Shown here piece after piece: positions 2,064-53,744 of a stretch of 64,000 nt of DNA. Position numbers and translations under genes: made by a program. The notes under the pieces were generated by a model. That model was not told the DNA's origin and made no database searches. It saw only the letters and a list, made by a program, of their open reading frames with translations. This DNA comes from Acidihalobacter aeolianus (GTDB lineage Bacteria > Pseudomonadota > Gammaproteobacteria > DSM-5130 > Acidihalobacteraceae): positions 2,188,462 to 2,252,461 of the forward strand of contig NZ_CP017448.1 in the NCBI RefSeq assembly GCF_001753165.1, given 5' to 3'. Within the stretch, counting starts at the first letter, position 1; every line of letters starts with the position of its first letter.

Positions 2064-5000
2064 ATGGGCATCCGGTTCAAACTACAGGCCCCCTTCATCG
2101 CGATAACCCTGATTCTGTTCGCGACCATTGCCGGTCTGTATTTCTACTGGATACCACAGGTCGACGAGAGGGCATTCGTGCAACTGGAGCATGCGACCCT
2201 GTCAGAAATGCAGTTGTCTGCGGAAACCATTGCGCCCGCGCTCGAGGATGGCAACATCGCCTTGATCCAGGACGAGCTGCGCACGATCCATGACCAGCAT
2301 CCCCACTGGATCGAACTCACCCTGCGTGATCGTGACGGCGTGAGGCTTTACCCGCTCTTCGGCCTTCGGCCAATTACCCGGGATCCGAAGCAACAGGATA
2401 TCGGTGACGCATCAGCCTATCGCCAAAGCCTGCACATGACCTTACCGATCAAGAACCGCTTGGGCGATGCCATCGGGTATCTTCAGGTCTCCGCCGACAA
2501 CTACTACATGGAACAACAGGAACACCGCACGATCCTCCTGACTCTGACCATCCTGAGCGTCATGGTCGCCTACATCATCTCCATCGGACTGTTTCTAATG
2601 GAGCGGTGGTTCAATCGTCCTTTGCGCGACCTGCTTGCTGCGACTCACAGAATTACGGTAGGTGACTACGACTCTCCCATCAAAACCCTGGCCCATGATG
2701 AAATCGGTCTGCTCGCAAGCCATTTCAACCAAATGCGTAGCAAGGTTCACAATCGCGAACTCAGCCTACAGGACGCGACCCATGAAGCTGAAAAGCTACG
2801 CGACACCTATGCTGCGCTTAGCGAATTGAATGCATTCATTGCGGAACGTCCTTCGCCTCCTGAACTCATTCAACGTTCGGCCTCCATCATGCAAAGAGCC
2901 CTGAAACCCGATTTGATTTGGATAGCACGTGTCGATTGGGACGACTTAAGCCTCAAGTGCGAGCACATCAGCCACCCATCTGAAAACCACTTGGACCACG
3001 GCGGCATTGAGCAGGCCATCTCGGCCATTAGAATCGGTGACAATCACGCTACGAATATCTTCCAGCAGATCATGATCGGCGGTGGGGTGCGTTGTGTACC
3101 CTCTCTTTTCGAGGAACAGGGTCTGGGCAGCTGGTGGGTTCTGTTATCCCGCCTGGACATCGACTGCATGCTGGTTGCGCCCATCATGACGGATGGGCAC
3201 GTCTCCAGAATAGTCGCGCTGTTTGGTGGCGAAAAGGGCGTTTGCGAACCCAGAAAAATCAAACTGCTCGAAGAACTCTCCGAAAGAATGGGCTTGTCGT
3301 TGGAAGACCACGCAAAGGATCAGGAACTGCAGTGGCACGCACATTACGATCCGCTGACCCAGCTACCCAACCGAACATTGTTCATGGGGCACCTTACCGA
3401 ATTACGCAGCAAATCCCTCATGCATGCCCAGGAACAACACTTCGCGGTAGGTATTCTCGATTTACACGGGCTTAAGAGCATCAATGACCGTTTGGGCCAT
3501 CAAAGTGGCGACATCGCAATCCGAGAGCTTGCAAACCGCCTCATCACGCATCAGCAGCCAGGGGATCTCATTGCACGATTAAATGGTGACGAATTTGGCC
3601 TGATTCTCTTCCCGGCTCGCGGCGACCCCCATTGGCAACATGCATTGAAGCGGTTGCTGGAAGATCTGACCGCACCATTCCTTCTCCCTGAAGGAGAAAG
3701 CATAGAGATCCAATCCCATATTGGTCTGGCCATGAGTCCCACTGACGGCAAACATCCGGAATCACTGCTGCGTCGTGCCGATTTGGCCTTGCAGGAAGCA
3801 AAATCCAACGAAGTATCCTGTTATCGCTTCTTCACACCCGCAATGGAAGAGCAAATGCTGCGCCGCTATCACGTGCAGCATGAGTTCATGGAGCTTATCG
3901 AGAAGAACGGACTGGAACTACATTACCAGCCTCAAATGGACATCGCCGCCTCGACCATTATCGGGTACGAAGCACTGATCCGATGGCCTCTACCTGAAGG
4001 CGGATATCGCCCGGTCAGCGAATTCATCACCCAGGTCGAGTTAGACGGACGTCTGATCCGGGCATTGGGCTGTTATGTCATCCGGAATGCTCTTGCCCAG
4101 CTGGAGACGTGGAAAGTATTCGGCTATGCAACCACTGTTTCCGTAAACATTGGCGCTCGCCACCTGTTGGCCCCGGAGTTCCTGCAGGACCTTGACCACA
4201 ACTTAGCTCGGCATGAGTCCGTACGGCATGCGCTCAAAATCGAAATTACCGAAACCGCCTATCTCAACGACCTGGGCAAGACGGCCAAGGTTCTGCACGC
4301 ATGCCATAAACGTGGCATCAAGGTTTCACTCGACGATTTCGGCACGGGGTACGCCTCGTTGAGCTATCTGCAGCGCCTACCCTGCGATCAGATCAAGATC
4401 GACCAGAGCTTCATCAGGCAAATCTTCGACGTCCCACAGAATCAGGCCATTGTCGCCGCACTCATTACTGCCGCACGCCAGATGGACCTGGAAGTAATTG
4501 CCGAAGGCGTTGAGACCACCGCACACGCCATCAGACTACTAGAAATGGGTTGCTTGACCGTACAAGGCTATGCGGCCTCCAAGCCCATGCCCGCCGATCA
4601 GGTCATCCCTTGGGCACAAGCTCAAATCCCCAATGTCACCTTGCCTGAATGGGCACGTGCCGCAGTCAACCTCTATGACTGCCGATTGCTCGCTATTGCT
4701 GCCGAGCATCATCTAAGCGCCTGCAACAGCTGTGAATTCTCCGCCAACAGGGCCTTTAGTGATATTTCAGCCGCCACAACTGGAGATCAAACCTGTCGAT
4801 TCAATCTCTGGTACGAGCGGGAAGGCAGAGAGACATACGGCGAACATCCGGAGTTTGAACGCCTGGGTCAAGCACATGAGCGCACACATAAAATCGAGTC
4901 CGCCAGCTGCCAACTCTGCAGAACCCCATGCCATCAAGATCCGTCCAGCAGCAGCCAAGAATCGATTCCGCATGACACACAAGCAGCCCAATCCGAATTT

Positions 5001-43826: not shown

Positions 43827-46475
43827 TCAGGCGCTGTGCTGCGCCTGAGCCAGAATCTCGCGTAGTTCGGGGATGCACGAACCGCAATTGGTACCCGCGC
43901 GCAGGGCCTCTCCGATCGCCTCCACGCTGGTGAGTCCTTGCTCGTCGATGGCCTCGACGAGCGTATTGAAACCGACGCCGAAGCAGGAACAGACCGGCCG
44001 CCCGGCCACCTGCATGCCCGTCGACGGCCGGCCGGCGAGCAGGCTCATGCGCGCGACGTCGTCGAGATAGTCCTCCGCAAACATCTGCCCTAGCCAGCTG
44101 CGCTCAGGAAGATTGCCTGGGGCCACGAAGAACACGAGTTCCAGACGTCCGTCGCGCAGTCGGGCACAGCGATAGCGCCCGGCCGCGGGGTCCGCGTACT
44201 CCATCCATTCGCCGGGGCCGAGCAGATGCGCCTGAACCCACCGCCCCCAGTCCTCCGGTTCCTCTTCGCCGGCCAGTTCGTAACGATGAAAACCCCGGCT
44301 GGGGATATGCACCCGGTAGTCTCCCAGTGCGATTTCCAGCGGCGACCGGCTGAGCAGGAAACCCGTCCAGTCCGGCCGGAACGGCTCCACGCGGACCGGG
44401 GCGTGCTTGAATTCCGGCTGTCCCGAAACCGGGTCGGTGACCGCTGCGGTCAGCACGTTGGCACGCGCATCGCGCGCATAGGTCTCGCTCCAGTGCATGG
44501 GCACGAACACCGAACCCGGCCGTTGCGCGGCATCCAGCTTCACCCGCGCCAGCATGCCGCCATGCGGACTGCTCAGCCGCGCCAGCCCGCCCTCGGCGAG
44601 ATGCCAGAGATCCGCGTCCAGGGGATGGATCTGCACGAAGGGTTCGGGCATGTGCGTGGTCAGCCGCGGGGTCCGCGCGGTGCGCGTCATGGTGTGCCAC
44701 TGATCGCGGATGCGGCCGGTATTCAGCACCAGGGGGTATTCGTCTCCGGCGGGTACCGCGGGCGGCCGCGGGGCGACCGGCAGCAGAAGCGCACGCCCGT
44801 CGGCGGTCGCGAAACATCCATCCGCGAACAGGCGCGTCGTACCTGAAGGCGTTGCCGGCGTTACCGGCCACTGCACGGGCGCCAGGGCGTCGTAGGCCGC
44901 ATCGTCCAGATCCGCCAGTGCGCCGATGTCGAATAGGCGTGCGCCGCCGTTTTCGAACCCGGATAAGGCCGCGTGTTCGCGAAAGATGTCGGCCGGCGAG
45001 CGAAAGGTGAAGGCATCGCCATGCCCCAGCCGGCGCGCGACCTCGGTCACGATCCACCAGTCGGGCCGGGCCTCGCCGGGTGGCGGCAGGAACGCACGCA
45101 TGCGCGAGATGCGACGTTCGGAATTGGTCACCGTGCCGTCCTTCTCGCCCCAGGTTGCCGCGGGCAGCAGCACGTCGGCGCAGGCCACGGTATCGCTGCC
45201 GCGCACGCAATCGGAAACGATCACGTGTTCGCAGGCGGCAAGAGCAGCCCGCACGCGTTCGCCGTCGGGCAGGCTCACCACCGGATTGGTGGCCATGATC
45301 CACACTGCCTTGATCCGTCCGTCCGCCACCGCTTCGAACAGATCGACGGCCTTGAAGCCTGGCGTCGCCGCGACCGCCGGCACGCCCCAGAAGCGCGCCA
45401 GGCGGTCGCGAGCGTCCGCATCCTCGATGTCCATGTGCGCGGCGAGCTGATTGGCCAACCCCCCGACCTCGCGTCCGCCCATTGCATTGGGCTGACCGGT
45501 CAGAGAAAACGGCCCCATGCCCGGGCGGCCGATGCGTCCTGTGGCCAGATGGCAGTTGATCAGCGCCACCCCCTTGTCCACGCCGCTGCTGGACTGGTTG
45601 AGTCCCTGCGACCACAGGGTCACGGTTTTCTCGGTGTGCAGGAACAGGCGAAAGAATTCCGCAACCTGCGCCGCCGGCAGCTCGCAGGCGGCGGCCACGG
45701 CAGGGATCGAGGGCGCTGCGGCGCGCGCCGCGGCAAGCGCGTCGTCCAGCCCCTGCGTATGCGCATCCAGGAACGCCCGGTTCAGACCGTCCTCCCTGGC
45801 CAGGAAGCTCAGCAGCCCGTCGAACAGCCAGGCGTCGCTGCCCGGGCGCAGTGCGAGGTGCAGGTCGGCGATGTCGCACGTCGGCGTGCGGCGCGGGTCG
45901 ACGACCACCACGCGCAGCTCCGGCCGACGGCGCTTCTCCGCCGCCACGCGCTGATACAGCACCGGATGGGTCCACGCGGCGTTCGAACCGACGAACACCA
46001 GCAGATCGGCCTGCTCCAGATCCTCGTAGCTGCAGGGCACCGCGTCCTCGCCCAGCGTCCGCTTGTAGGCGGCCACCGCCGAGGACATGCACAGCCGCGA
46101 GTTGGTATCGATGTTGGCCGCCCCGATGAAGCCCTTCATCAGCTTGTTGGCGACGTAATAGTCCTCGGTCAGCAGCTGGCCGGAGACGTAGAAGGCCACG
46201 GCCTGCGGTCCGTGGGTCTCGATCACGCTGCGCAGGCGCCCGGCCACCTCGCCGAGAGCGGCCTCCCAGCTCACCGGGGTCCCGCCGATTTCCGGGCGCA
46301 GCAGGCGGTCGGCCTCGCCCAGGGTTTCGCCCAGTGCCGCGCCCTTGGAACAGACCCGTCCGCGGTTGGCCGGATGCGCGACATCCGGCGTCACTGCAGC
46401 CCGCCCATCGCCCGGCTCGACGCGCAGGCCGCAACCGACGCCGCAATAGGGGCAGACGGTGGACGTCTCAGCCAT
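43827..46475 (-). CDS. nasA: Assimilatory nitrate reductase catalytic subunit
   Basis: 882 aa molybdopterin oxidoreductase. N-terminal [4Fe-4S] ligands in VCPYCGVGCGL and RVCSKG. Mo-bis-MGD domain with SSAVAAYKRTLGEDA and GQPNAMGGREVGG. The C-terminal extension carries a BFD-type [2Fe-2S] domain with CSC and NCGSC, as in Klebsiella NasA. Cytoplasmic, no Tat signal. Start 46475 overlaps nirD by 8 nt. Electron donor subunit NasC is not present in the window. Confidence 0.94.
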   Translation of the reverse strand: MAETSTVCPYCGVGCGLRVEPGDGRAAVTPDVAHPANRGRVCSKGAALGETLGEADRLLRPEIGGTPVSWEAALGEVAGRLRSVIETHGPQAVAFYVSGQLLTEDYYVANKLMKGFIGAANIDTNSRLCMSSAVAAYKRTLGEDAVPCSYEDLEQADLLVFVGSNAAWTHPVLYQRVAAEKRRRPELRVVVVDPRRTPTCDIADLHLALRPGSDAWLFDGLLSFLAREDGLNRAFLDAHTQGLDDALAAARAAAPSIPAVAAACELPAAQVAEFFRLFLHTEKTVTLWSQGLNQSSSGVDKGVALINCHLATGRIGRPGMGPFSLTGQPNAMGGREVGGLANQLAAHMDIEDADARDRLARFWGVPAVAATPGFKAVDLFEAVADGRIKAVWIMATNPVVSLPDGERVRAALAACEHVIVSDCVRGSDTVACADVLLPAATWGEKDGTVTNSERRISRMRAFLPPPGEARPDWWIVTEVARRLGHGDAFTFRSPADIFREHAALSGFENGGARLFDIGALADLDDAAYDALAPVQWPVTPATPSGTTRLFADGCFATADGRALLLPVAPRPPAVPAGDEYPLVLNTGRIRDQWHTMTRTARTPRLTTHMPEPFVQIHPLDADLWHLAEGGLARLSSPHGGMLARVKLDAAQRPGSVFVPMHWSETYARDARANVLTAAVTDPVSGQPEFKHAPVRVEPFRPDWTGFLLSRSPLEIALGDYRVHIPSRGFHRYELAGEEEPEDWGRWVQAHLLGPGEWMEYADPAAGRYRCARLRDGRLELVFFVAPGNLPERSWLGQMFAEDYLDDVARMSLLAGRPSTGMQVAGRPVCSCFGVGFNTLVEAIDEQGLTSVEAIGEALRAGTNCGSCIPELREILAQAQHSA

Positions 46476-46800
46476 GGCTCGCGACCTGCGCGTCAGCCAG
46501 CTCAAGCCAGATCGTCCCTTCCTCGACGCGCGTGGCGAAACACGCCGTGGCGCCCACGTCGGGCGCCGCCGCCTCGCCGCTGTCGAGGGCGATCTGCCAG
46601 TTGTGCAAGGGGCATGTCACACGTCTGCCGTGCACGATACCCTGCGACAGCGGCCCGCCCTTATGCGGGCAGCGGTCGCGCAGGGCGAACACCGCATCCT
46701 CGGCGTTGCGGAACACGGCGATATCGCCCTCGGCCGCGCGCACGATGCGTGCGCCGAGGCGCGGGATATCCTCCAGCCGTCCGATCTCGATCCAGGCCAT
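46468..46800 (-). CDS. nirD: Nitrite reductase small subunit (Rieske-like)
   Basis: 110 aa Rieske-like fold. It keeps Rieske-type ligands: CPHKGGPL and CPLHNW supply Cys-x-His and Cys-x2-His, whereas many NirD proteins lack them. The start shares the TGATG junction with the nirB stop. Cytoplasmic partner of NirB. Confidence 0.92.
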   Translation of the reverse strand: MAWIEIGRLEDIPRLGARIVRAAEGDIAVFRNAEDAVFALRDRCPHKGGPLSQGIVHGRRVTCPLHNWQIALDSGEAAAPDVGATACFATRVEEGTIWLELADAQVASHG

Positions 46801-49244
46801 CACACCACCTCCTTGAGCGGGACGAACTCGTGTCGGTCGCGACCTTCCGCACGCTCCTGCCAGGGATCGATCTGCGCGAACCGCTGTGAATACATGAACC
46901 GTTCGTAGAGCCCGGCGCGTACCACGGCATCCTCCACCACCACGCGCTTGACGTAGGACACGCCGACCCGCTCCAGCCAGGGGGCGGTACGCTCCAGATA
47001 ACGCGCATCCTCGCGGTAGAACTGGATGAAGGCCGCGGTGTATTCGAGCACCTCCTCGGGCGTGCGCACCTTGCACAGGAAATCGGTCGAACGCACCTTG
47101 GTGCCGCCGTTGCCGCCGACGTGCAGTTCGTAGCCGGAATCCACGCACACCACGCCGAGGTCCTTGACGTTGGATTCGGCGCAGTTGCGCGGGCAGCCGG
47201 AAACCCCAATCTTGAATTTGTGCGGCATCCACGAACCCCAGGTCAGCTTCTCCAGATCGATGCCGAGGCCGGTCGAGTCCTGCGTGCCGAAGCGGCACCA
47301 CTCCGAACCGACGCAGGTCTTCACAGTGCGCAGGGCCTTGGCATAGGCGTGCCCGGAGACGAAGCCGGCACGCGTGAGATCGCCCCACATGGCCGGCAGG
47401 TCCTCCTTCTTCACCCCCAGCAGGTCGAGCCGCTGGCCACCGGTGAACTTGACCGTGGGTACCTGATACTTCTCGGCCACCTCGGCGATGGCGCGCAGCT
47501 CCGCGGGCGTGGTCACCCCGCCCCAGATGCGCGGCACCACCGAATAGGTGCCGTCCTTCTGAATGTTGGCGTGGGCGCGCTCGTTGATGTAGCGCGACTG
47601 GTAGTCGTCCACGTACTCGCCCGGCCAGGCGCACAGCAAGTAGTAGTTGAGCGCGGGGCGGCAAACATGGCAGCCGCTGTCGTTGTTCCACTGCATCGCG
47701 ACGAACACCGCCGGCATGTCCTTGAGACCCTGCTTGCGGATCGCCTCGCGCACCTCGTCGTGGGTGTGCTCGGTGCAGCCGCACAGGGGCTTGCGCGAGG
47801 GCGCGGTGGAGTAGTCGCCGCCGACGGTGGCGGCGAGGATGTTCTCCACTAGGCCGGTGCAGGAACCGCAGGAATTGCTCGCCTTGGTGTGCAGGCGCAC
47901 ATCCTCCAGCGTGAACAGCTTCTTGCTGGTGATCGCCTGCACGATCTCGCCCTTGCACACGCCGTTGCAGCCGCAGATCTCGGCATTGTCCGGCAGACTG
48001 GCGATGCGCGACTCCTCGTCGCCATGGCCGGTGTCGCCGATGTGTGCCTGGCCGAACAGCAGGTTCTCGCGGATATCCGAAACGTCGGCGCCGTCGCGCA
48101 TCAGCTGGAAGTACCACGGCCCGTCGAGGGTGTCGCCGTACATCACCGCGCCCTCGATGCGGTTGTCCTTGAGCACCAGCTTGCGATAGATGCCGCGTGC
48201 GGCATCCTGGAACACCATTTCCTCGCAGTCCTCGTCGCCGTTGAAGCGACCGGCGGAGAACAGGTCGATGCCGGTCACCTTGAGCTTGGTCGAGGTCATC
48301 GAGCCGCGGTACTGGGCGATGCCGTATTCGGCCAGATGGTTGGCGCAGACCTTGGCCTGCTCGAACAGGGGAGCGACCAGGCCGTATACGCTGCCGCGAT
48401 GCTGCACGCACTCGCCGACCGCGTAGATGCTGGGATCGAAGGTCTGCAGCGTGTCGTTGACCAGGATGCCGCGCTCGCAGTAGAGCCCGGCCTCCTGGGC
48501 CAGCGCGACATTGGGCCGGATGCCGACGGCCATCACCACGAGGTCGGCCTCGAGCTCGCCGCCGTCCTGGAAGCGCACCCCGGTGACGTGCTCATCGCCG
48601 AGGATCTCGGTGGACTGCGCACCCAGGCGGAACTGCAGCCCGCGGCTTTCCAGCGCGCGCGCCAGCAGACCGGCGGCCGCAGCGTCGAGCTGACGCTCCA
48701 TGAGGATGTCGGTGATGTGCACCACGGTTACCGACATGCCCTGCTTGAGCAACCCGTTGGCCGCCTCCAGTCCGAGCAGTCCGCCGCCGATCACCACCGC
48801 GTGACGCCCGCTGTGTGCGGCCGCGAGCATGGCGTCGACGTCCTGGATGTCGCGGAAGGCGACCACGCCGCGCTTGTCGTGACCCGGCAGCGGGATGATG
48901 AACGGCTTGGAGCCGATGGCCAGGATCAGGCGGTCGTAAGCCGCCTCGGTGCCGTCCTCGGCTATCACGCGACGGCGCACGCGGTCGATGCGCGCGATCC
49001 GCTTGCCCTTGTGCAGGGTGATGCCGTGGTCGCGATACCAGGCGTCGTCGTTGAGGATGATGTCGTCGATGCGCTTCTCGCCGGCCAGGACCGGTGACAG
49101 CATGATGCGGTTGTAATTGCCGTAGGGTTCGTCGCCGAACACGGTGATGTCGTACATGTCCGGGGCGAGCTTGAGCAATTCCTCAAGCGTCCGCACGCCC
49201 GCCATGCCGTTGCCGACCAGTACCAGTTTCTGCTTGCCAGTCAT
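46800..49244 (-). CDS. nirB: NAD(P)H-dependent nitrite reductase large subunit
   Basis: 814 aa. FAD/NAD domain (about 1-310: VLVGNGMAGVRTLEELL, and VIGGGLLGLEAANGL), BFD-type [2Fe-2S] domain with CGCNGVCKGEIV and SCGSCTGLVE, then the sulfite/nitrite reductase domain with the sirohaem-[4Fe-4S] ligands in TCVGSEWCRFG and SGCPRNCAES. Six-electron reduction of nitrite to ammonium in the cytoplasm. GGGAG ribosome site; 14 nt after nasS. Confidence 0.97.
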   Translation of the reverse strand: MTGKQKLVLVGNGMAGVRTLEELLKLAPDMYDITVFGDEPYGNYNRIMLSPVLAGEKRIDDIILNDDAWYRDHGITLHKGKRIARIDRVRRRVIAEDGTEAAYDRLILAIGSKPFIIPLPGHDKRGVVAFRDIQDVDAMLAAAHSGRHAVVIGGGLLGLEAANGLLKQGMSVTVVHITDILMERQLDAAAAGLLARALESRGLQFRLGAQSTEILGDEHVTGVRFQDGGELEADLVVMAVGIRPNVALAQEAGLYCERGILVNDTLQTFDPSIYAVGECVQHRGSVYGLVAPLFEQAKVCANHLAEYGIAQYRGSMTSTKLKVTGIDLFSAGRFNGDEDCEEMVFQDAARGIYRKLVLKDNRIEGAVMYGDTLDGPWYFQLMRDGADVSDIRENLLFGQAHIGDTGHGDEESRIASLPDNAEICGCNGVCKGEIVQAITSKKLFTLEDVRLHTKASNSCGSCTGLVENILAATVGGDYSTAPSRKPLCGCTEHTHDEVREAIRKQGLKDMPAVFVAMQWNNDSGCHVCRPALNYYLLCAWPGEYVDDYQSRYINERAHANIQKDGTYSVVPRIWGGVTTPAELRAIAEVAEKYQVPTVKFTGGQRLDLLGVKKEDLPAMWGDLTRAGFVSGHAYAKALRTVKTCVGSEWCRFGTQDSTGLGIDLEKLTWGSWMPHKFKIGVSGCPRNCAESNVKDLGVVCVDSGYELHVGGNGGTKVRSTDFLCKVRTPEEVLEYTAAFIQFYREDARYLERTAPWLERVGVSYVKRVVVEDAVVRAGLYERFMYSQRFAQIDPWQERAEGRDRHEFVPLKEVV

Positions 49245-49258
49245 CTCGATTCTCCCAA

Positions 49259-50647
49259 TCAGGAAGTGCCTTCCCCAGCGCTGTCGACCATGCGGGCCGC
49301 GCGCGAGGAACGGGGGCGATTCAAATGTCTCAGGGTATCCAGCAGCACGCGGTGCTGGGCGATGGCGAAGGACTCCAGATAGCCCACCGGGTCCTGCGGA
49401 TCGAAGCGGCTGCCGTCATAAAAGGCGTCCGCGCCCATGAGCAGCGACTCGGGTGTCGCTTGCGCGAGCTGCCATTCGCCGGCGTGCAGGCCTTCGGGCT
49501 TGTAGTCGATGAGCGGACAGGCCCAGCCGAGCGCCTCGGCCGCCTCGCGGTAGTACTCCGGACGGTAGGCCGCCGCCGCGATGGCTTCCAGATCGTGCGC
49601 CGCCTCGACCTGGCCCCAGCGGTAGAGCTGCAGCTCGAACCAGAGCGCGTGCGAGCGCCAGGGAAACATCGCCGCATAGCGATGGAACACATTGAAGTCC
49701 GGCTGCGCCACCGGCGCTGCGCCCGGGTCGAACACCAGTTCGCCGTGCAGCGGCAGATCCAGCAGGGGTTGTTTGATGCCGACGTACTCCGGTCTTGCGA
49801 GCAGCGCCGCCGCTTCGCCGCGATGAGCCGGATCGTCCAGCCACTCGCCGGCGCGCATGATCGCGCGCACCAGCGCCCGCAAGGTGTGCGGGTGCCGGTC
49901 GGCCCATTCCTGGGTGGCGCCCAGCACCTTCTCCGGCTTGTGCCGCCAGAGCTGGTCGCTGGTGATCGCGATATGCCCGTGCCCGCCCTGTACGGCAAGG
50001 CTGTTCCAGGGCTCGCCGACGCAGAAGCCGTCGATTTCGCCGGCGCGCAGGCGTGCGACCATTTGCGGCGGCGGAATGACCACGATGCGGATGTCGCGGT
50101 CGGGATCGATGCCAGCCGCGGCCAGCCAGTAGCGCAGCTCGTAGTTGTGGCTGGAGACCGGGTACACCACCGCGAAGGTCAACGGCGGCGCTCCGACGTC
50201 CCGATCCGCACCGATGACCTGGCGCAGCGCATCCGCCGTACGGGGACGCTGCGCCAGCTCGTCGCCGGAAACCTCTTGCATGCGCGCGAACAGACGCCGG
50301 GACAGCGTGATGGCGTTGCCGCCCAGCCCCAGGCTCAGCGCGGCGACCAACGGACGCCGCACGGCGGTGATGCCGAGCTGGCTGGCCACCGGCATGCCGG
50401 CCAGCATCTGCGCACCGTCCAGCGCGCCCATCATGACCTTGTCGCGGATATTCGCCCACGAAGGCTCGCGCGAAAGCGTGACGTCGAGGCGTTCGTCGGC
50501 GAACAGACCGAGCTCGCTGGCCACGACCAGCGGCGCACAGTCGGTCAGCGGCACGAAGCCCAGCGTCAGTTCGCGTTGTTCCAATTCGCTGCCGGGCCGT
50601 TTCCCGAGTTTGAGCCGGGAACGCCCGCCCGCAGTGTTTTCAGCCAT
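49259..50647 (-). CDS. nasS: NasS: cytosolic nitrate/nitrite-sensing partner of NasT
   Basis: 462 aa, NrtA/CmpA family. LTLGFVPLTDCAPLVVASELGLF and AGEIDGFCVGEPWNSLA are typical. Start 50647 has GGAGTG 8 nt upstream and gives no signal peptide or lipobox, which favours cytosolic NasS over periplasmic NrtA. No nitrate ABC permease or ATPase is in the window, and nasT is close by. NasS sequesters NasT without nitrate. Its own gene is the first after leader 1, so the sensor would be made as part of the operon it controls. Confidence 0.88.
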   Translation of the reverse strand: MAENTAGGRSRLKLGKRPGSELEQRELTLGFVPLTDCAPLVVASELGLFADERLDVTLSREPSWANIRDKVMMGALDGAQMLAGMPVASQLGITAVRRPLVAALSLGLGGNAITLSRRLFARMQEVSGDELAQRPRTADALRQVIGADRDVGAPPLTFAVVYPVSSHNYELRYWLAAAGIDPDRDIRIVVIPPPQMVARLRAGEIDGFCVGEPWNSLAVQGGHGHIAITSDQLWRHKPEKVLGATQEWADRHPHTLRALVRAIMRAGEWLDDPAHRGEAAALLARPEYVGIKQPLLDLPLHGELVFDPGAAPVAQPDFNVFHRYAAMFPWRSHALWFELQLYRWGQVEAAHDLEAIAAAAYRPEYYREAAEALGWACPLIDYKPEGLHAGEWQLAQATPESLLMGADAFYDGSRFDPQDPVGYLESFAIAQHRVLLDTLRHLNRPRSSRAARMVDSAGEGTS

Positions 50648-50668
50648 GCCTAACACTCCATTCGGACC

Positions 50669-50766
50669 AAAAAAAGGCGTCGCAGCGTTTCGTGCACTGG
50701 ACACGAACGCGACGACGCCTTTGTCGATAGTTTCTGCGCTGAACCTTCGGGGGCCCGCCGTTGGGC
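50669..50766 (-). promoter_or_regulatory. NasT-type antitermination leader before nasS (two hexaloops plus terminator)
   Basis: On the minus strand, in order: hairpin P1 at 50766-50753 (GCCC-AACGGC-GGGC), hairpin P2 at 50746-50729 (AGGTTC-AGCGCA-GAAACT with one internal mismatch), then an intrinsic terminator at 50722-50669: a long GC-rich stem with a 7-nt loop followed by seven U. Both hexaloops have A at position 1 and G at position 4, the mark of ANTAR-protein RNA targets. The U-run ends 21 nt before the nasS start, so termination would block the whole nasS-nirBD-nasA-cysG series. Confidence 0.85.
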
Positions 50767-50802
50767 GCCTGAAGGCGTATGCTCAAATCTTGAATCTAAT
50801 GA

Positions 50803-50818
50803 AGCACATCGCATGCCA
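50803..50818 (-). promoter_or_regulatory. Sigma-54-like promoter of the nasS-nirBD-nasA operon
   Basis: On the minus strand TGGCATGCGATGTGCT matches TGGCACG-N4-TTGCW at GG, GC and most other positions, with the required GG-to-GC spacing. Transcription would start near 50792, about 26 nt ahead of hairpin P1. Confidence 0.65.
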
Positions 50819-50881
50819 GTCTTGGGTACGGCACAACCCGTGTTTGCACGACTCGGAAGGCCCGTCCTCGCCCGACATCAC

Positions 50882-50896
50882 GCACCGCAGTGGTGC
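50882..50896. promoter_or_regulatory. NtrC-type enhancer site upstream of nasS
   Basis: GCACC-GCAGT-GGTGC is a perfect dyad of the NtrC consensus (GCAC-N7-GTGC). Its centre lies about 97 nt upstream of the predicted sigma-54 start, the usual enhancer distance. It falls in the gap after the 51-aa gene. Confidence 0.6.
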
Positions 50897-50933
50897 GCCC
50901 ATTGCGAGCGCGCACCGCGACGACGCGTGTGCT

Positions 50934-51089
50934 TCAGTGTTTGCCCGGAAAGCCTCCCAGGCCGTGAAACGCCATGTACAGCGAATAGGCGCTCACTGCG
51001 ATGGCGATGAACATCTCAAAGAACATGAAGGCCACGCCGTACTTGTACCAGGGCTCGTGCGATTTCACTTGCGTATCGTTGCCATGCAT
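50934..51089 (-). CDS. Small single-span membrane protein, 51 aa, in the nas cluster
   Basis: Ribosome site GGGAG about 8 nt before the ATG at 51089. Polar N-terminus (MHGNDTQVKSHEPWYKYG), one hydrophobic segment about residues 19-43 and a short tail ending GGFPGKH. It lies 85 nt after narK on the same strand and before the nasS leader, so it is likely co-transcribed with narK. No family recognised; a partner of the NarK-type transporter is a guess from position. Confidence 0.68.
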   Translation of the reverse strand: MHGNDTQVKSHEPWYKYGVAFMFFEMFIAIAVSAYSLYMAFHGLGGFPGKH

Positions 51090-51174
51090 GTCGGATTCTC
51101 CCTAAAGCGGCATCAGTTACGCCGCCTGCAATGTGTGTTGCCCGCCGTCCGTCTGGGCGACGGGCATGCTCCAA

Positions 51175-52500
51175 TCAGGCCTTCTCGACCACCGTTTCAC
51201 CGCGTGGCTTGAGCCAGTTCTCACCGATGCCGTGGTCCTCCGGGTGGTGCTCGTAGCGAGCCGCCCAGAAATAGAACAGCGTGAAGGGGATGAACATGAA
51301 CAGGGCGATGTAGAGGTAGCCCATGTGGATGTTGCCCACGTGCGCAAACACCAGCGGGTAGACGATGCCGCCCGCGGTCGACACACCGCCGATGAAGCCC
51401 GCCGCGACGCCCGGGCGATCGGGGAACAGCAAGGGCACGAGCGCGAAGGTGCCGCCGGTGCCAAAGCTCACGAAGATGCCGAAGGCGACCAGCACCATCA
51501 CCGACAGCGGCAGCGAATTCATCAGGCCTGCGACCGTGAATGCCACCATCGACAGCGTGATCAGCAGCAGCGAGATGGCCAGCCAGTGCAGCCGCGGCGC
51601 ATAAGGCAGGGTGCGTGCAATCATCGGCAGCGGCGTCCAGCCGCGACGCTGGAACAGGTCGGACATGAAGCCCGAGAACGGCCGGAACAGCGAGGCGGTG
51701 AACGACTGCACGGCGGCGAAGGTGCCCGCCGCAATCTGCACGCCGGCGATGCTGGTGAAGCCGAGGGCGAGGATCGCCTCGTGGAAACCGCGCGTGAAGT
51801 AGCCGGGCAGCCAGGCGTTCATCGCGATTTCCAGGCCGAAGGACATGGCGTAGGCCAGCATCAGGGCGATGGCGATATAGCGCGTCCAGACAAAAACCGT
51901 GCCCCTAAAATCGGCGGACTGACGCGCGGTGGCGCGCACCTTTTCGTGCTTGGCGGCTTCGCCGCGAAGCAGATACCAGGCCGCGATGCCGAGCGCGATC
52001 ACGCCCAGCCAGAGGAAGGCCGCCTGGTAGTCGAGACCGAAAATGCGCGGCAACAGCAACGCCCCGACGCCGGCACCGACGTTGCCCGTTCCCGCATACA
52101 GCCCCTCGGCAGTACCGATCTCGTCCGGCTCGAACCACTGTGCCACGTGCTGGATACCGACCACGAAGGACACGCCCGCGATGGCCACGATCACCCGCTC
52201 GATGAACAGGATGTCGTAGTCGGTGGTATAGGCCGAGGCGATGGAAACCAGGCCGCAGACCGCCAGAATCGTCGCGAAGGTACGCGGCGCGCCAAAGCGA
52301 TCTGCCGCCCAGCCGGCGACGATGCGGCCTATCGGGGCCATCCAGATGGCCGAACTGGCCAGCAGGCCGAGCGCCGCCAGGCTGAGGTTGTAGTGGTTGG
52401 CGATACTCGGGCTGAAGGCAGCCGTCGAGAACCACATCAGAAAGCACCAGAAAAAGCCGACGGTCGCGATGACCAGTTGTTCAACCTTGTGCGTTTTCAT
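51175..52500 (-). CDS. narK: NarK/NasA-type MFS nitrate/nitrite transporter
   Basis: 441 aa with about 12 membrane segments. Nitrate/nitrite porter features: GWAADRFGAPRTFA after segment 2, and the glycine-rich nitrate signature GTGGTFALVPLLFPDRPGV with AAGFIGGVSTAGGIVYPL. Start 52500 has GGAGGA just upstream; a longer in-frame start adds 13 residues before it. As the only nitrate importer seen in the cluster it should supply NasA. It is preceded by leader 2 and a sigma-54-type promoter. Confidence 0.92.
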   Translation of the reverse strand: MKTHKVEQLVIATVGFFWCFLMWFSTAAFSPSIANHYNLSLAALGLLASSAIWMAPIGRIVAGWAADRFGAPRTFATILAVCGLVSIASAYTTDYDILFIERVIVAIAGVSFVVGIQHVAQWFEPDEIGTAEGLYAGTGNVGAGVGALLLPRIFGLDYQAAFLWLGVIALGIAAWYLLRGEAAKHEKVRATARQSADFRGTVFVWTRYIAIALMLAYAMSFGLEIAMNAWLPGYFTRGFHEAILALGFTSIAGVQIAAGTFAAVQSFTASLFRPFSGFMSDLFQRRGWTPLPMIARTLPYAPRLHWLAISLLLITLSMVAFTVAGLMNSLPLSVMVLVAFGIFVSFGTGGTFALVPLLFPDRPGVAAGFIGGVSTAGGIVYPLVFAHVGNIHMGYLYIALFMFIPFTLFYFWAARYEHHPEDHGIGENWLKPRGETVVEKA

Positions 52501-52623
52501 GCATCCTCCGAAAACATCCAATCCCAGCGGCGCTGACACGCGCTGAAGACCCGGCCCGCCCTACCGCAGCTCGATGTTCCGGGGACCCGTTTCCCCACAC
52601 CGGTTAGCGGTCGATGGCGGCGC

Positions 52624-52730
52624 AAAAAAAAACGGCGCCGCCCGGACGAAATAAAGCTTCGTCCGGGTGACGCCGTTGTCCTGTTTGAGGGTCAGCTTTG
52701 ACTCTCGATTGTGCCGGGCCATCGTTGGCC
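52624..52730 (-). promoter_or_regulatory. NasT-type antitermination leader before narK (two hexaloops plus terminator)
   Basis: On the minus strand: P1 at 52730-52717 (GGCC-AACGAT-GGCC), P2 at 52706-52687 (GAGAGTC-AAAGCT-GACCCTC, one A-C mismatch in the stem), then a terminator at 52677-52624: 10 bp (CCCGGACGAA side) plus 7 bp separated by a small internal loop, a 7-nt loop, and nine U. Both hexaloops again have A1 and G4. The terminator ends 124 nt before the narK start. Confidence 0.88.
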
Positions 52731-52753
52731 AAGCCATGCTTGAGCCGAGTTAA

Positions 52754-52769
52754 AGCAAAAGATGTACCA
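52754..52769 (-). promoter_or_regulatory. Sigma-54-like promoter of narK
   Basis: On the minus strand TGGTACATCTTTTGCT fits TGGCACG-N4-TTGCW, including TTGCT at -12 and GG at -24. The start would be near 52743, 13 nt before hairpin P1. A weak NtrC-like sequence (GTGC-TACTTTG-GTGC, 52847-52861) lies about 110 nt upstream but is not a true dyad. Confidence 0.72.
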
Positions 52770-52894
52770 AGGCCATGAAAAAACAAAAACTATATGAAAA
52801 ACAATCTGGTAAATATATTCCCCACGAAAACCATCCCGGGCAGACCGTGCTACTTTGGTGCAGGCGTGCGCATCACGCCCACTGGCAGTGCATG

Positions 52895-53485
52895 TCAACC
52901 GAGCAATTCTGCCGCGGCCAGCAACATCCTCGCGACGTCGCCCAGCTTTTGGTTGCGGTCCATGGCGAGCTTGCGTAGGGCCGAATAGGCATCCTCTTCC
53001 GAGAGCCCCTTCTGGCGCATCAACACGCCCTTCGCCTTGTCGATGTCGCGCCGGTCGGCCAGCTTGTTGCGGGTCAGATCCAGTTCGTTGCGCAGGGCCT
53101 GATATTCGCGAAAACGTGCGATGGCCACGTCCATGATCGGCCGGATGCGACTGGGATTGAGCCCATCCACCACATAGGCGCTGACGCCGGCGCGCACCGC
53201 CTCCTCGATGGTCGCACCGTCGCTCTGCGCAGCGAACATGATGACCGGCCGGGGCTGTTCGCGGTTGATCAGGCGCATGGATTCGAGGGTGTCGCGGTCG
53301 GGGATATCCATGTCGACGAACACGACGTCGGGCTGCAGCTCCTGCACGCGCTTGAACACGTCATCCCCGTCGGACAGGCGCGCGACGACCTCGCAGCCCT
53401 GATCCTTGAGCGCCTGCTCGAGGATCGCGGCACGTCCGGCTGACTTGTCGAACAGCATTACACGCAAACGGCCGCGTTGATTCAT
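52895..53485 (-). CDS. nasT: NasT-type ANTAR antitermination regulator
   Basis: 196 aa. Receiver-like N-terminus (RLRVMLFDKSAGRAAILEQAL, VVFVDMDIPDRDTLESMRLI) and C-terminal ANTAR three-helix RNA-binding domain about 132-192 (RRDIDKAKGVLMRQKGLSEEDAY, ALRKLAMDRNQKLGDVA). It binds dual hexaloop RNA to prevent termination; NasS inhibits it without nitrate. Two such leaders occur in this window. GGAGGGG ribosome site 8 nt before the start. Transcribed ahead of the narK promoter on the same strand and apparently from its own promoter. Confidence 0.93.
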   Translation of the reverse strand: MNQRGRLRVMLFDKSAGRAAILEQALKDQGCEVVARLSDGDDVFKRVQELQPDVVFVDMDIPDRDTLESMRLINREQPRPVIMFAAQSDGATIEEAVRAGVSAYVVDGLNPSRIRPIMDVAIARFREYQALRNELDLTRNKLADRRDIDKAKGVLMRQKGLSEEDAYSALRKLAMDRNQKLGDVARMLLAAAELLG

Positions 53486-53744
53486 GCCCGAGCCCCTCCA
53501 AGGGAAATCCAGTTCGCATTCGCGACACGCCGGTGTGACGTGAGGTCCATCGGCGCATCGTCACGCCGGCATTTACCCAAACACCAAGCAAGGTTCAAGC
53601 CACGCCGCCTGGCAAAGGCTAGAGAGGCATTGAAAAGACCTCGATGTTGGATTTCTCTGCATCCATCGACAAGTACTCGCGCGCGCCATGAGGAATGCCT
53701 ATGATTTGCGCGCCCTTCACCCCCTGCGTCAGGAGCGCACCCCC

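Follow-up and report, generated by a model that had tools for sequence, protein, structure and literature searches.

The nitrate assimilation locus and its two leaders

The window analysed here, a 64,000-nucleotide stretch of Acidihalobacter aeolianus DNA, covers positions 2188462-2252461 of the first of the two contigs of this 3.53-Mb genome. On its minus strand it carries, in this order, nasT, a leader that we designate leader 1, narK, a 51-aa frame, a second leader (leader 2), nasS, nirB, nirD and nasA.

53587-53602, minus strand: sigma-54-like site TGGCTTGAACCTTGCT ahead of nasT, one of the top-scoring sites among the window's 300 candidates; TGG-N10-GC kept in congeners
52895-53485, minus strand: nasT, receiver-like domain plus ANTAR domain (PF03861, E 9.9e-20; PF00072); aligns with EutV 6wsh
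51175-52500, minus strand: narK-type MFS nitrate/nitrite transporter (PF07690; TIGR00886 below its cut-off), start at 52500
49259-50647, minus strand: nasS, cytoplasmic NrtA-like nitrate sensor (PF13379, E 1.9e-87); its sequence shows no signal peptide
46800-49244, minus strand: nirB, assimilatory nitrite reductase large subunit (TIGR02374, above cut-off)
43827-46505, minus strand: nasA/nasC-type assimilatory nitrate reductase (NF047855, E 5.9e-128, below cut-off), after nirD; the true start lies within the frame

The nirD gene is a Rieske-like frame 5' of nasA. We place the nasS start at the ATG at 50647; a longer GTG frame would open inside the leader 2 terminator. The closest solved structures to the nasS product are nitrate-transporter regulatory domains and NrtA. 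The second-best NasS homologue in the genome carries a leader of the twin-arginine type and has ABC partners; the sole NasS-like protein to lack a signal peptide is the one encoded directly 3' of leader 2. A search of the organism's own genome found a single ANTAR gene, nasT, just upstream of leader 1, and ntrC and rpoN (sigma-54) are encoded elsewhere in the same genome. The closest named relative of this NasT (73%) is found in an Acidihalobacter MAG. When NasT was aligned to EutV 6wsh, the residues that read G4 of the RNA loop (R142, K149, E160 and Y164), as well as M172, were identical; the EutV backbone contacts N173, R175 and R177 are replaced by D, N and K, which counts against the explanation favoured below. 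NasT also has an Asp at the position of the receiver's conserved switch Lys (AYVVDGL versus GYLVKPL in EutV), as do the other NasT sequences seen, which suggests that its receiver is not phosphorylation-controlled. Because the sigma-54-like site ahead of nasT is kept in congeners, nasT itself is probably nitrogen-controlled, too. The 51-aa frame between narK and leader 2 (50934-51089, minus strand), a putative single-helix membrane protein conserved in two congeners, gave no convincing match in a Pfam search.

Leader 1, between nasT and narK, comprises a promoter, three hairpins and a terminator.

52754-52769, minus strand: sigma-54 promoter TGGTACATCTTTTGCT, GG-N10-GC, identified by consensus match, scan and conservation in two congeners
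52715-52732, minus strand: P0, extra upstream hairpin with hexaloop AACGAT (52726-52721); covariance match alone 12.2 bits
52687-52706, minus strand: P1 hairpin GAGAGTC-AAAGCT-GACCCTC, hexaloop at 52699-52694; first half of the covariance match 52708-52666
52669-52680, minus strand: P2 hairpin GAC-AACGGC-GTC, hexaloop at 52677-52672; second half of the covariance match 52708-52666
52624-52677, minus strand: intrinsic terminator, hairpin 52677-52631 plus nine T (52632-52624), -36.2 kcal/mol alone

The promoter is the window's sole match to TGGYACN5TTGCW, against 0.05 expected, and it ranks first among 300 sigma-54 candidates in the scan; the sites ahead of nasT and leader 2 are tied for second rank, together with one other site. 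The initial annotation had recognized this promoter, with a spacing one position off (it reads N5-TTGCTT or N4-TTTGCT, not N5-TTTGCT), and was right about the strong terminator with nine U on the minus strand and about the position ahead of a nitrate transporter gene on the same strand. It had described two A1/G4 hexaloop hairpins, AACGAT and AAAGCT; both are there, but the count is three, AACGGC having been missed. All three loops have A1 and G4, and all are closed by a C:G pair. The loop and 3' side of P2 form the 5' arm of the terminator. Because the AACGGC hairpin shares this arm, the functional pair is predicted to be AAAGCT (P1) and AACGGC (P2). P2 is thus the putative antiterminator, mutually exclusive with the terminator, and the AACGAT hairpin, P0, is by this assignment an additional one. 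The two hairpins originally named as the ANTAR pair therefore correspond to P0 and P1, and the terminator-excluding hairpin is the third. Mutual exclusion of P2 and terminator is a working feature of ANTAR attenuators (PMC3369931, PMC8934654). The leader 1 fold was better than 200 of 200 shuffles (z -5.4). P2 has three pairs only, and the protein-free RNA prefers the terminator form by ~11 kcal/mol, so everything would depend on NasT acting co-transcriptionally. Upstream of leader 1 we found no good NtrC site, the best being a weak half-site that agrees with the consensus at 8 of 12 positions.

A second complete NasT-type leader, leader 2, lies about 2 kb beyond leader 1 (50818-50669, minus strand) and had gone unnoticed in the initial annotation. 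It runs from a sigma-54 site through an AACGGC hairpin, CGAC-AAAGGC-GTCG, a terminator and seven T to the nasS ATG.

50881-50897, minus strand: NtrC-type dyad CGCACC-N5-GGTGCG ahead of leader 2, agreeing with the consensus at 10 of 12 positions
50803-50818, minus strand: sigma-54 promoter TGGCATGCGATGTGCT, among the best of 300 candidates; conserved in congeners
50742-50777, minus strand: P1, extended hairpin with hexaloop AACGGC (50762-50757); covariance match 50771-50711, 32.9 bits
50713-50726, minus strand: P2, CGAC-AAAGGC-GTCG, overlapping the terminator; covariance match 50771-50711 and P2-terminator pattern
50669-50722, minus strand: intrinsic terminator with seven T; hairpin -31.9 kcal/mol alone

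The dyad has the top score in the window, tied with five other places, and this simple NtrC score is not specific alone, since the window has six places that match at 10 of 12 positions; GCACC-N5-GGTGC is invariant in three species. A generic promoter/terminator scanner missed both terminators owing to mismatches in their stems.

Conservation and covariance

Both leaders are preserved in two congeners. In leader 1 the promoter, P1, P2 and the terminator with its T-run are all kept; the P1 loop reads AATGCA or AACGCG there, retaining A1, A2 and G4, and the P2 loop AACGGC is invariant in the three species. P0 is degenerate in the congeners, where it is also readable as a heptaloop. Leader 2 is kept in both, as is its NtrC-type dyad.

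Leaders for comparison were gathered from 49 NasT loci in named genomes and by pattern and Rfam searches, and two covariance models were used, of which R1 included leader 1, making its score for leader 1 circular, and R2 was built without window sequences. R2 found leader 2 (50771-50711) at 32.9 bits (E 4.7e-8) and P1 plus P2 of leader 1 (52708-52666) at 22.7 bits (E 4.8e-5). With R1, which includes leader 1, the two leaders were the only strong matches in the genome and nothing else exceeded 19.5 bits; weak matches elsewhere (L101-L104, 17.9-19.5 bits) were rejected, having no hexaloop array with a terminator.

Of the 94 hexaloop-terminator candidates collected from related loci, 50 have one or more hexaloops upstream of the one that overlaps the terminator: 33 have one (1.2 expected from dinucleotide shuffles) and 17 have two (0.01 expected), the latter coming from a few lineages (Competibacteraceae, Sulfuricella-type, some others and leader 1 of the window) that do not represent independent events. 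Across 28 aligned leaders, 95.4% of cells were paired versus 74.6% after shuffling, and 8 of the 11 pairs showed compensatory double changes; G4, A2 and the C:G pair that closes the loop did not vary. This set had been selected for A1/G4, the closing pair and pairing as such, but not for the constant A2 or for variety among pair types. A MAFFT alignment made for the triple leaders breaks up P0, and this alignment was kept out of the pair counts. A strict pattern for P2-terminator overlap matched in 13 of 369 class genomes, with 0 for the reversed control, and nearly all matches adjoin nasT, nasS/nrtA, narK or nirB.

Judged from its sequence, leader 1 is a real, well-conserved element of the known NasT/ANTAR type; extras are its triple hexaloops and, at leader 2, the sensor gene behind its own switch. 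The original proposal of a NasT/ANTAR leader under a sigma-54 promoter is supported by the non-circular covariance model, conservation in congeners, the adjacent sole ANTAR gene nasT, and the presence of ntrC and rpoN in the genome.

Relation to known RNA families and systems

No match in an Rfam scan of the leaders reached its gathering score, and no family named ANTAR was among the matches. Against narK RNA (RF03032; gathering score 43.2), leader 1 scored 21.6 bits and leader 2 24.5 bits. Against P11 (RF00625; gathering score 70), leader 2 scored 30.1 bits (E 5.2e-5), full length and in register, and leader 1 18.6 bits. We dismissed matches to miRNA, ctRNA and snoRNA families (E 0.06-9) as chance, produced by the terminator hairpin or GC-rich DNA. 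In one class genome (G162), narK is preceded by a narK RNA and nirB by a P11, both scoring above threshold; the two lie 3.7 kb from each other with nasT just upstream, which is the layout of the window. The consensus of each family opens with a sigma-54 promoter and contains A1/G4 hexaloops. By these features narK RNA and P11, filed apart in Rfam, are one kind of element, of the NasT/ANTAR leader type, and are here unified as such, with promoter DNA in their models. As matched in two loci (L059 and L089), both models treat the sigma-54 promoter as RNA, and the second hexaloop hairpin of narK RNA is unannotated.

The P11/NalA leader of Pseudomonas nirBD resembles the leaders described here in its sigma-54 promoter, A1/G4 hexaloop and NasT control, the last of these predicted for the present leaders, and in a terminal GGAC-AAAGGC-GUCC hairpin that overlaps the terminator; it differs in the first gene behind it, which is nirB in the Pseudomonas-like genome, whereas nasS stands behind leader 2. 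In the passage of PMC9196836 that cites Romeo et al. 2012, NalA is the nirBD leader of P. aeruginosa, controlled by antitermination. P11 matches NalA in position and sequence, and their position leads us to infer that they are the same RNA. The narK RNA lies between nasT and narK, as leader 1 does, and its consensus has a sigma-54 site, a hexaloop AACGGC and an unannotated second loop AAAGAC, but leader 1 aligns to it in a shifted register and has three hexaloops. The NasT/nasA leader of Paracoccus denitrificans shares the NasS-NasT pair, leader hairpins and, as predicted here, NtrC input (PMC3795266, PMC5424462); nasT and nasS are cotranscribed there, whereas here nasS is in the attenuated operon. 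Dual-hexaloop antitermination by EutV/NasR likewise involves A1/G4 loops, a C:G closing pair and P2-terminator exclusion (PMC3369931, PMC7496416, PMC8934654), but with other sensors, and a third hexaloop is present in leader 1 and in many NasT leaders.

Both leaders have the make-up of an ANTAR substrate, namely two hairpins in succession, each with 3 or more pairs, an A1/G4 hexaloop and C:G closing, the second overlapping an intrinsic terminator. The genome encodes an ANTAR protein with the base-reading residues, the cytoplasmic NrtA-like NasS of a NasS-NasT system and, for sigma-54/NtrC control, rpoN and ntrC to go with the GG-N10-GC element. Both nitrate-assimilation leaders of this bacterium can now be placed in the NasT/ANTAR family.

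Proposed regulation and alternatives

The explanation that best joins these observations, to which we give a probability of roughly 90%, is that both leaders are NasT-controlled attenuators under sigma-54/NtrC promoters, antiterminated upon nitrate and with feedback through nasS. Under nitrogen limitation, NtrC and sigma-54 would initiate transcription at predicted start sites near 52743 for leader 1 and near 50792 for leader 2. When nitrate is absent, NasS would hold NasT, and polymerase would transcribe roughly 120 nt before halting at the terminator. Once nitrate or nitrite is present, NasS would release NasT, as its homologues do, and free NasT, binding as in homologues, would meet the first hexaloops as they emerge and then stabilise P2. 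The terminator could then not form, allowing transcription of narK behind leader 1 and of nasS-nirB-nirD-nasA behind leader 2. Nitrate-dependent dissociation of NasS-NasT and binding of NasT to the leader are known from Paracoccus (PMC3795266), the need for leader hairpins and NtrBC input has been shown in a homologue (PMC5424462), and deletion of nasT leaves P. putida nitrate-blind (PMC7261876). Control of nitrate assimilation by NasT and nitrogen status has thus been shown in Paracoccus and Pseudomonas (PMC3795266, PMC5424462, PMC7261876), and by analogy narK and nitrate assimilation in this organism would require both nitrogen shortage and nitrate. A caution comes from Bradyrhizobium, where a NasT leader is predicted before narK, yet narK is not NasT-dependent under denitrifying conditions (PMC6759348).

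Because nasS sits behind leader 2 and its NasT-controlled terminator, released NasT would lead to more NasS, its own inhibitor; gene order makes such negative feedback probable. Both congeners place nasS in this way, as do loci L009, L017 and L019; many other relatives have it next to nasT.

Three alternatives were weighed against this explanation. The pairing originally proposed, with AACGAT and AAAGCT as the ANTAR pair and the terminator merely following, accommodates the A1/G4 loops and C:G closing of both hairpins; however, both lie clear of the terminator, which could therefore still form with protein bound there, and the covariance model picks AAAGCT and AACGGC, the AACGAT hairpin being weaker in congeners and the AACGGC loop invariant. 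We regard this pairing as very improbable. It is scarcely credible that the leader 1 terminator merely ends the nasT transcript, with the narK promoter further downstream: although it lies 218-271 nt beyond the nasT stop on the same strand, a conserved promoter and hexaloops stand between the two, the same module precedes nasS, away from nasT, and a search of 50500-53700 revealed no sigma-70-type promoter. The terminator may end nasT transcripts as well.

That the terminated leader is a trans-acting small RNA, for example one titrating NasT, has precedent in the Pseudomonas counterpart, first catalogued as an sRNA (P11; NalA, PMC9196836), and in the ANTAR-sequestering sRNA EutX (PMC8934654). 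Nevertheless, the leader stands directly ahead of genes in nearly all loci examined, and we consider this account unlikely; action in trans could be an additional role.

In nearly all leaders, dual and triple, the first hexaloop follows the promoter TGG by 35-50 nt (with one exception at 56), which fits a sigma-54 start about 10-25 nt before the hexaloop. By the sequential-binding model of ANTAR antitermination developed for EutV (Walshe et al., PMC8934654), P0 could be an additional NasT loading site. More tentatively, and with considerable doubt, three hexaloops in series, common in NasT leaders, might form a ladder that hands one NasT dimer from loop to loop towards P2 and tunes sensitivity, nasS behind such a leader making the system self-limiting. 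Our search of the literature outside subscription journals found no earlier report of a third ANTAR hairpin. These natural variants, with three hexaloops or with the sensor gene behind the switch, offer test material for the sequential-binding model.

In two lineages, a NasT-type leader directly precedes an Alginate_exp-type (PF13372) outer-membrane porin gene.

L109 190-1437 (minus strand), L115, L017 2830-4050 and L019 3308-4525: PF13372 porins behind a NasT-type leader

In congeners the porin with its NasT-type leader adjoins moeA. The PF13372 protein is possibly a nitrate porin of the NasT regulon; a search of the window's genome found neither a PF13372 porin nor a third NasT leader. In L009, a protein phosphatase/kinase-like frame (2236-3984) lies between two NasT leaders, behind a narK-like transporter gene, and P. 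aeruginosa presumably has a kinase gene at the equivalent place.
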